Assembly (NCBI GenBank): GCA_903850425.1 | Contig: CAINLR010000133.1 | Location: forward strand, 1 to 64,000 | Origin: an uncultured Verrucomicrobia subdivision 3 bacterium | GTDB lineage: Bacteria > Verrucomicrobiota > Verrucomicrobiia > Limisphaerales > UBA11358 | Length of the DNA: 64,000 bases | Reading direction: 5' to 3' | Shown here: in pieces, positions 59,684-62,385 of the stretch | Layout: each line of letters opens with the position of its first letter | Numbering within the stretch: the stretch's first letter is position 1 | Notes under the pieces: generated by a model | What the model saw: only the letters and a program-made list of their open reading frames with translations | Databases searched by the model: none | What the model was told of the DNA's origin: nothing | Position numbers and translations under genes: made by a program

Positions 59684-61027
59684 ATGTTCGATTCGCTCAG
59701 CAGCAAGCTTCAGAATGCCTTCAAGAATTTGCGTGGGCTCGGAAAGATTTCCGAGGCCAACGCCGGTGATGCCTTGCGCGAGGTGCGCATGGCGCTGCTC
59801 GAAGCCGATGTTAATTTCAAGGTCGCCCGCGATTTCATCGAGCGCGTCAAAACCAAGGCGCTCGGCGCGGAGGTCATTGCCAGCGTCCAACCCGGCCAGC
59901 AGATCATCAAGATCATTTCAGACGAACTCGTCGAGCTGCTCGGCTCGGCCAACGCGGCGCTGAAGCTCGAGGGCAATCCAAGCTGCCTCATGCTGGTGGG
60001 CTTGCATGGCGCGGGCAAAACGACTTCCGCCGGCAAACTCGCCAAACTCCTGCTGAAACAAGGCCGCGCGCCCATGCTCGTGGCGGCCGATGTCTATCGG
60101 CCGGCGGCGATGGACCAGCTCGAAACGCTCGGCAAACAGGTGGACGTCCCCGTTTTTCTCAAGCGCGGCGAGACGGACGTTTTGAAGATTGCCCGCGAGG
60201 CGCTGGAATTCGCGAAGGCGAATAATCGCGCCACGATTATTTTCGACACGGCTGGCCGCCTCCAGATTGACGAACCGCTGGTGCAGGAACTCGTCCGCCT
60301 GCGCGATCTCGTGAAGCCGACGGAAATCCTCCTCGTGCTCGACGCCGCGACCGGGCAAGAAGCCGTGAATGTCGCCACGCATTTCGATTCCGCGCTGAAC
60401 ATCACCGGTGCCATCCTCACCAAGCTCGACGGCGATGCGCGCGGCGGCGCGGCCTTGAGCCTGAAGGCCGTCACCGGCAAGCCGATCAAGTTCATGGGCG
60501 TCGGCGAAAAGCTGGACGAGTTCGAGCCGTTTCATCCCGAGCGCATGGCGTCGCGGATTCTCGGCATGGGCGACGTGGTCAGCCTCGTGGAACGCGCCGC
60601 TGATGCCGTCAACGAAGAAGACGCCAAGCGCATGGAAGAAAAGATGCGCAAGGGCGAATTCACGCTGGAGGATTTTCTCGAGCAGTTGCGCGCGATGAAG
60701 AAGCTCGGTTCGCTGGAAAACATTCTCAAAATGCTGCCCGGCGGCGGCGATGCGCTGAAGCAGATTGACATCGGCAAGCAGGAAAAAGAATTCAAGCGCA
60801 TGGAAGGCATGGTCTGCGCCATGACGAAAAAAGAGCGGCTGAATCCCGTCATTCTCAACGCGAGCCGCCGTCGCCGCATCGCCGCCGGCAGCGGCGTGAC
60901 CGTGACGGAGTTGAACACGATGCTCAACAAGTTTTTCCAGATGCAGACCATGATGAAGAAGATGGGCAAGATGTCCAAGATGATGGGCAAAATGGGCGGC
61001 GCGCTGCCGGGCATGATGCGGCGGTAA
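59684..61027 (+). CDS. ffh: Signal recognition particle protein Ffh
   Basis: The 447-residue GTPase has an N domain with SKLQNAFKNLRGLGKISEAN, and a G domain with P-loop GLHGAGKTTSAGKLAKLLLK, DTAGRLQIDEPLVQEL and TKLDGDARGGAALS. The M domain (residues about 300-447) is methionine-rich and ends in MQTMMKKMGKMSKMMGKMG. With 4.5S RNA it targets membrane proteins to the translocon. Normal length. The gene is followed by a long repeat region. I see no 4.5S RNA gene nearby. Confidence 0.97.
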   Translation: MFDSLSSKLQNAFKNLRGLGKISEANAGDALREVRMALLEADVNFKVARDFIERVKTKALGAEVIASVQPGQQIIKIISDELVELLGSANAALKLEGNPSCLMLVGLHGAGKTTSAGKLAKLLLKQGRAPMLVAADVYRPAAMDQLETLGKQVDVPVFLKRGETDVLKIAREALEFAKANNRATIIFDTAGRLQIDEPLVQELVRLRDLVKPTEILLVLDAATGQEAVNVATHFDSALNITGAILTKLDGDARGGAALSLKAVTGKPIKFMGVGEKLDEFEPFHPERMASRILGMGDVVSLVERAADAVNEEDAKRMEEKMRKGEFTLEDFLEQLRAMKKLGSLENILKMLPGGGDALKQIDIGKQEKEFKRMEGMVCAMTKKERLNPVILNASRRRRIAAGSGVTVTELNTMLNKFFQMQTMMKKMGKMSKMMGKMGGALPGMMRR

Positions 61028-61039
61028 CGGTTCCAACCG

Positions 61040-61395
61040 CCCGCGACGCCCGGCCGCCCAGTCGCGACGGCTTTCCGGCAGCCGGCGACGCCCCTCCGAC
61101 CGACCGCGACGGGGTGTTTTCGGGCTGCGACGCCCGTTCGGAGGCTTGCGGCGGCCTCCCGTCACTCCCCAACCCCTGTCCGGCAGCCGGCGACGCCGAT
61201 TTTCCGGCTGCGACACCTTTCCGACCGGTTGCGACGGGCTGCCGCCGCCTCGCGACGCCCCTCCAACCGGCTGCGACGCCTTGCCGACCGGTTGCGACGG
61301 GCTGTTTTCGGGCTGCGACGCCCGTTCGGAGGGTTGCGACGCGCTTCCGTCGCTCCCCAACGCCTGTCCGCCGGCTTGCGACGGCCTAAAACCCA
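61040..61395. repeat. 21-bp GC-rich tandem repeat, about 17 units
   Basis: Units begin GCGACG and run for 21 bases, for example GCGACGCCCCTCCAACCGGC plus one. I segment about 17 units, with one of 20 bases and two places where a unit lost its GCGACG. A higher-order copy of nine units (188 bp) is visible: the block GCGACGGGGTGTTTTCGGG at 61106 recurs as GCGACGGGCTGTTTTCGGG at 61294 and the next units follow in the same order. The period is seven codons, so both strands read as heptapeptide repeats such as A-S-Q-P-V-G-K on the minus strand. Confidence 0.92.
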
Positions 61396-61436
61396 TTTGC
61401 GCAGCTATTTATGCCGCCAATTCTGCGGCGGCGGTT

Positions 61437-61584
61437 GGGGAGCACGCCCGCCCCGGGCGTCGGTGGACGCGCCCTCGCGTCCGCCGGTGGCGCGTGACCC
61501 TCCCCGGAACGCTGGCAACGTCTCGGTGCGCCCGGATTTTCCGCGAGGGCGCGGAAAATGGCACCCGGGGCGGGCGCGCTCCCC
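61437..61584. repeat. Large palindromic dispersed element
   Basis: The left arm GGGGAGCACGCCCGCCCCGG and the right arm CCGGGGCGGGCGCGCTCCCC are inverted copies with one mismatch, about 100 bp apart. The inside contains more inverted words (GGACGCGCC facing GGTGGCGCGT; CCGCGAGGGCGCGGAAAAT). The ending GGGGAGC/GCTCCCC arms match a dispersed element seen in Verrucomicrobiota genomes as I recall it, so this is a copy and not a unique structure. Confidence 0.75.
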
Positions 61585-61698
61585 ACGCCCCTTAAGTTTT
61601 CCTTAAAAAAATGTTGCGCTGGCCAGCGGTCGGCACATACTCGCCGCCAAGCCTTCGCTTGTTCAGGAAGGGGAAACCAGCATGAAACCAGGAATGTT

Positions 61699-62385
61699 AT
61701 GAAGCACAAAATCACCAGCCTCCTCGCCACCTTCAAAACCGCTGACGCCTATGGCCTCAAATACGCCGCCGATTATCCGCTCACGAGCCTCGGCGGCCAG
61801 CAGTTTGCCCTCATTCACGCCGCCGTGCCGCAAGAGGGCGCGCTCGGTGCCGCGCAGGATTCCGGCTCCGAACAGATTGACAGCAGCGTCCTCGCCAAAG
61901 TCGCCGGCCGCTTCCAACTGCGCACGGACATGCTCGGCATCACCGACGCCGTGCATTCCCTCGTCCTGCTCGGCCATACCGAGCTCGGCGGCAAATTCCT
62001 CATGCCCCACAGCAATGGCGACCAAGCCCTGCTCAACCGCGCCCGCGCCTTTGCCACCGATGCCGTGGCGTTCCAGGCGTTGTTCGTCAGCGTCGGTCTG
62101 GCCGCCGATTTCATCACCCATCTCAAGGCCGACACCGATGCGTTTGAAACGGCCATCACCGCCAAAGGCACCGGCACCGGCGATCAGGTCAAAGCCACCA
62201 GCGGCCTGGAAGACACCGCGCACAAGGCGAGCATCGCCCTGCATGTGCTGAACACCATCGTCCGGAACGCGAACAAGAATAATCCCGCCAAACTCGCCGA
62301 ATGGGCCACCGCCAGCCATGTGGAAAAACACACGCCCGTCCCGCAGGCCAAAAAACCGGCGGCCACCACGCCCCCGGCGAAATAA
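61699..62385 (+). CDS. Protein of unknown function
   Basis: The ATG at 61699 gives 228 residues, without signal peptide. It is rich in A, D, H and T, with an even helical pattern (VHSLVLLGHTELGGKFLMPH, ALLNRARAFATDAVAFQALF) and a low-complexity tail rich in P, A and K from about residue 205. I recognise no domain. Upstream is a plausible ribosome-binding site (GGAAGGGGAAA then ATG 30 bases on, and a closer GGAATG). The gene stands alone between the repeat region and the RCC1-type gene. Confidence 0.7.
   Translation: MKHKITSLLATFKTADAYGLKYAADYPLTSLGGQQFALIHAAVPQEGALGAAQDSGSEQIDSSVLAKVAGRFQLRTDMLGITDAVHSLVLLGHTELGGKFLMPHSNGDQALLNRARAFATDAVAFQALFVSVGLAADFITHLKADTDAFETAITAKGTGTGDQVKATSGLEDTAHKASIALHVLNTIVRNANKNNPAKLAEWATASHVEKHTPVPQAKKPAATTPPAK

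Follow-up and report, generated by a model that had tools for sequence, protein, structure and literature searches.

Among described systems, the parC site of ParMRC plasmid partition is a row of direct repeats near a promoter, with repeats of 17 bp on pCW3 and 20 bp for pSK41, and the repeat sequence diverges between co-resident families (PMC9426499). By analogy, parC and its ParR are the best comparison for the repeat array described here, which lies in a 64,000-nucleotide window (the whole stretch of DNA that was analysed). This array and its relatives are likewise rows of direct repeats near a candidate promoter, with a core sequence that differs between families, but they are chromosomal, number many per genome, and mostly lack a gene. 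The window locus showed no RHH protein, and neither an actin-like ParM nor a second gene common to the six gene-linked loci was seen in the ORF listing (neighbours partly scanned against Pfam). An RHH-type ParR was rejected as the protein encoded beside the array: there is no Pfam or NCBIfam match, and the predicted model has long helices without a beta ribbon.

REP/REPIN elements and their RAYT transposase (PMC3116915) are likewise short repeats scattered through intergenic regions, some of them accompanied by one gene; they differ in being palindrome pairs, whereas the present arrays are long and ordered, nearly every one with its own core. The Y1 (TnpA-REP) transposase is not matched by the partner proteins. 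Type III toxin–antitoxin systems (ToxIN; PMC8860590, PMC5086642) likewise pair a single protein gene with an adjacent tandem repeat array, but the layout here is divergent, pseudoknot-free folding gives no RNA structure signal, and no toxin family is matched; a ToxN/CptN/TenpN-type ribonuclease was rejected as the partner, with no match in Pfam, NCBIfam, or PADLOC. Bacterial minisatellites (VNTRs) share the tandem, partly duplicated units, but not the fixed period over unrelated sequences or the conserved core with free filler. The first-pass annotation had set aside a CRISPR, correctly: identical repeats of ~25–45 bp with unique spacers are absent, and the units are contiguous, 21 bp long, and share a core of only ~12 bp. 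Literature searches (open-licence papers) found no published description of such arrays.

The window array and its partner gene

The locus comprises the following features:

59684–61027, plus strand: ffh, the convergent neighbour, whose stop codon abuts the array
61028–61383, minus strand: repeat array with 17 units, all of 21 bp except for one of 20 bp; the minus-strand unit is CGTCGCA-RSYSG plus about nine variable bases
61216–61383, minus strand: array-strand units 1–8, apparent first copy of a higher-order block
61028–61195, minus strand: array-strand units 10–17, apparent second copy of the block, offset by 188 bp
61384–61404, minus strand: short border TGCGCAAATGGGTTTTAGGC immediately before unit 1, also found at two orphan arrays on contigs C45 and C27 of this genome
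61614–61641, plus strand: candidate promoter of the partner gene, TTGCGC-N16-CATACT, seen by eye
61699–62385, plus strand: partner gene, divergent from the array, for a 228-aa uncharacterised all-helical protein with a Pro-rich tail (family 1)

The last array unit touches the ffh stop codon (61025–61027), and ffh is not thought to belong to the element. GCGACG-like starts recur at 61043, 61064, and onward to 61378, with a spacing of nearly always 21 bp; the exceptions are two 42-bp slots with a degenerate unit and one 20-bp unit. The first-pass annotation had described about 17 imperfect 21-bp units starting with GCGACG, and these are real: 17 were counted, one of them of 20 bp. It had the right place, although its limits of 61040–61395 are about 12 bp off, and its 188-bp higher-order copy is confirmed, units 1–8 recurring as units 10–17. 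Self-identity of the array peaks at 72.7% at offset 188 and is at most 55% at all other offsets tested, and from their sequence units 1–8 and 10–17 look like two copies of one block. TRF reports arrays of period 21/42, and our periodicity detector found this array alone in the 64-kb window and none in locally shuffled sequence.

Between the duplicated blocks, the seven-base core carries 5 mismatches in 49 sites compared with 27 of 96 at the remaining sites (p = 0.019); for a six-base core, picked afterwards, the figures are 1 of 42 vs. 31 of 103 for the other columns (p = 0.0001). A large, GC-rich inverted repeat (GGGGAGCACGCCCGCCCCGGGCG ... GGGGCGGGCGCGCTCCCC) occupies 61439–61585, between the array and the partner gene, and a similar copy adjoins the array of contig C45 (L189). 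At L190, L191, L196, and L200, a convergent gene has its stop codon ~1–10 bp from the distal end of the array.

The predicted model of the partner protein is a low-confidence bundle of six helices (pLDDT 72, pTM 0.43). No recognisable DNA-binding domain or PDB relative was found; a fold search returned generic helical bundles and no close fold, and sequence searches of Pfam, NCBIfam, PHROGs, PADLOC, and PDB gave nothing above noise. Plasmid, phage, and viral collections hold no relatives of the protein, and viral contigs match the array pattern with unrelated repeats only. Other copies of the gene have a similar pair, TTGCNN and CATAATCGCC, at the candidate promoter.

One 21-bp period, many cores, and two gene families

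A unit profile was built in the minus-strand reading from 173 units of 19 arrays of the GTCGCA type, 157 of which are exactly 21 bp long; 16 units measure 20 bp, and 22-bp units occur too. The consensus is C-G-T-C-G-C-A-R-S-Y-S-G, in which positions 1–7 each carry 1.5–1.9 bits; nearly free positions 13–18 follow (<0.1 bits at positions 13 and 15), and then GG. This profile is partly biased, because most of its arrays were found through the core. Among gene-anchored arrays, which were chosen without the core, contiguous conserved columns exceed expectation, 9 of 29 at p < 0.05. The window unit recurs in the same genome on contigs C3, C45, and C27, with a weak array on C126, and, with other fillers, in the congeners G015, G019, G021, G023, and G063 (a short array in G010). 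The window array (contig C133) and those of C45 and C27 look like copies of each other, since the border TGCGCAAATGGNNTTTAGGC before unit 1 is common to them. A leader motif, CAACTGTCNCTTTTTGACC, is present at some arrays only.

Six array loci stand back to back with one gene family, of which 61699–62385 is the window member. A protein-based search found 12 full-length family-1 copies in the genus and further ones in the order. The 12 of the genus and the three nearest outside it make up the 15 close family-1 genes; every one of them has an array of 20–21 bp units upstream, divergent and within about 0.5 kb, and the cores differ among these arrays (GTCGCA, GTCGTG, GCACGR, CGCGCA, CCGCAA, and TGCACA). 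Chains of at least six units were detected at 19 of the 20 members listed as array-bearing vs. 1 of 167 background windows, the single positive being another array. Distant family-1 members have an array in 6 of 18 cases, with unrelated cores; the other 12 have none. Counted by genome within the genus, the exact GTCGCA pattern occurs in 6 of the 8 genomes that carry the gene and in 1 of the remaining 41 (p about 1e-5 in a hypergeometric calculation by hand), a count in which G010, with its short array, is not scored as positive. Gene-linked arrays are narrow in size, mostly 9–12 units, independent of the core, and core type does not cluster on the protein tree (103 of 500 shuffles were as clustered).

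One array of G019 precedes a different, probably helical protein (P0002; family 2). Relatives of P0002 found by sequence have a chain of at least five 21-bp units upstream in 6 of 8 independent copies with enough upstream DNA, and a chain of four units in the remaining two; the cores again differ. The two helical families are apparently unrelated by sequence, with no detectable homology (hhalign probability 5.5%).

A scan that uses no core, covering periods of 10–45 bp in eight congeners (about 1.65 Mb, excluding the window), detected 28 arrays, 23 with a period of 21 bp and 3 with one of 42 bp; the remaining 2 had a different period. Most have their own core. Locally shuffled congener DNA gave no arrays, and the same detector reports other periods in other phyla. 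Array density is highest in G019, at 4.35 per 100 kb, and the sampled parts of G001 and G055, two congeners that lack both gene families, contain no array; these densities and the extrapolated ~150 arrays per G019 genome are rough, because the stretches sampled from G019 and G000 came partly from contigs known to bear an array (though not the array's own place). Many assemblies are fragmented. In G021 the gene is present but the sampled part yielded no array, and in G017 arrays occur but no gene was found. Orphan arrays sit between ordinary genes, and in G019, the richest genome, most arrays lack an adjoining gene of either family. Two-fold symmetric units were found in half of the orphan arrays tested and not in gene-linked arrays. 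The 21-bp arrays at L286, L287, L292, L294, L295, and L296 have significantly two-fold symmetric units, and some of these arrays alternate two unit types at a 42-bp period. On these sequence comparisons, the window repeat belongs to a dispersed class of arrays of about ten units, with a 21-base ruler and mostly locus-specific cores, which occurs in some Verrucomicrobia-type genomes, in part just upstream of the gene for either helical protein.

A row of protein-binding sites and its rivals

The array looks neither coding nor like a folded RNA, because stops and folding are both near control level. All six frames of the relatives contain stops (5–15 seen vs. 10–19 expected from column-permuted arrays; about half of expectation in two or three frames). 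In folding energy, neither strand is more structured than its column-permuted controls (mean z of −0.41 and +0.12; pseudoknot-free folding), Rfam has no match for the array, and the strong covariation signals inside units join neighbouring filler bases, not base pairs. The first-pass annotation had suggested heptapeptide repeats or a very young coding sequence, 21 bp being seven codons and both strands free of stops. Some frames of the window array are open, but no open frame is kept among the relatives, in which stops are about as frequent as in the controls or somewhat rarer, and the 20-bp units (16 of 173) shift the frame; the array is probably non-coding, and we consider a coding repeat or young gene highly improbable. 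It is also distinctly unlikely that transcription of the array yields a repeat RNA to which the helical protein binds, as in a type III toxin–antitoxin-like or RNA-sponge module: such a module would account for one gene with one array as a compact unit, for orphan arrays elsewhere, and for the directional unit of gene-linked arrays, but array and gene are divergent and not one transcript, neither strand is structured above its controls in pseudoknot-free folding, and Rfam, Pfam, NCBIfam, and PADLOC have no match.

"Variable non-coding minisatellite," another of the annotation's suggestions, serves as a description, and copy number does vary, a block is duplicated within the window array, and the orphan arrays of G000 share borders, as expected of simple copies. 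Simple slippage is insufficient as the cause, because the 21-bp ruler is fixed across unrelated sequences and the core has diverged less than the rest between the duplicated blocks. Slippage has no preference for 21 bp, yet the detector, which does find other periods in other bacteria, reported hardly any here (2 of 28 arrays), and the linkage to genes also argues against a functionless minisatellite, which seems quite unlikely. The main rival to protein sites is an array-making process, in which an enzyme or replication-repair, active in a subset of these genomes, copies 21 bp of any sequence in tandem and the arrays then decay. It would explain one period across unrelated sequences, the near-perfect, young-looking arrays that adjoin decayed ones (L297, L275, L259, and L324), the alternation of two unit types at 42 bp in several arrays, and the mostly orphan arrays of G019. 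Functionless decay, however, should strike all columns equally, yet cores stay while fillers drift; the same GTCGCA core is seen again in further families within the order; and the process does not predict tight linkage to two gene families. We regard this process as somewhat unlikely.

Among the readings of the first-pass annotation, a protein-binding array appears to fit best, and we give a probability of about 0.45 to the arrays being rows of protein-binding sites, one per two helix turns. This is favoured by phasing near two helix turns, to which the 20- and 22-bp units are better suited than to codons, by the division of the unit into about one turn of conserved and one turn of free sequence, and by the steady 9–12 units. 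Further support comes from the near-exclusive period of 21 (and 42) bp while the core changes between arrays, a core that has diverged less than the remaining sites between the two window blocks, the symmetric units of half of the tested orphan arrays, which resemble dimer operators, and the divergent array at 15 of 15 close family-1 genes, with the second family likewise. The array would then consist of directional DNA sites of ~12 bp, one per 21 bp, all on the same side of the helix, and proteins occupying about ten sites side by side could form an ordered nucleoprotein stretch of ~210 bp, for which iteron arrays and plasmid centromeres are parallels. The adjoining divergent helical protein would be the likeliest specific partner or co-factor, and, as for purpose, the array may serve self-regulation, the organisation of DNA, or the maintenance of a mobile element. 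The protein-site reading is weakened by the low-confidence partner model, which has no recognisable DNA-binding domain or PDB relative, and by the 12 of 18 distant family-1 members without an array. A strict scheme in which each neighbour binds its array is weakened by the many orphan cores and by the disagreement of core type with the protein tree; one core for one neighbour is not the whole story, because most G019 arrays are gene-free and G017 has arrays with no detected gene.

One period over unrelated sequences calls for some molecular ruler, be it a protein lattice with sites every two helix turns or a duplication of DNA in 21-bp steps. On this scale either would, to our knowledge, be new for bacterial chromosomes, and either, if true, would give a testable role to two protein families without annotation. 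A more speculative reading, to which we give less than even odds, is that the arrays are an undescribed bacterial element: about ten 21-bp units of ruler-fixed length and mostly locus-private sequence, dispersed in intergenic DNA, and tied to dedicated helical-protein families that would build or read them.

GTCGCA arrays in other settings

The GTCGCA core was found again in other families of the order, and the named records in which such an array occurs are metagenome assemblies labelled "Verrucomicrobia subdivision 3" or Limisphaerales. When all genomes were scanned for the exact pattern, other phyla yielded many tandem repeats that are unrelated; a GTCGCA match therefore does not by itself indicate kinship. 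Distant bacteria with GTCGCA arrays of ~20–21 bp and differing fillers include Gracilibacillus oryzae (L089, L093, and L097), Paenisporosarcina indica (L051 and L079), and Albibacillus kandeliae (L045); the partner gene family is absent nearby in all three.

At L202:1058–1460 (contig C241 of G015), a GTCGCA array without its own ORF is flanked by integron attC-like sites (GCCTAAC...GTTAGGC; read by eye), as if it had been captured as a gene cassette, and GTTAGGC/GCCTAAC words also lie near arrays at L203, L221, and L223. Arrays of ~22-bp units with a palindromic core, CTGTCSGACAG, directly abut GTCGCA arrays at L189:1–115 and L192:60–128. Two core types also adjoin at L206:13302–13800, where a GTCGCA array passes straight into one with a GCACGG core.
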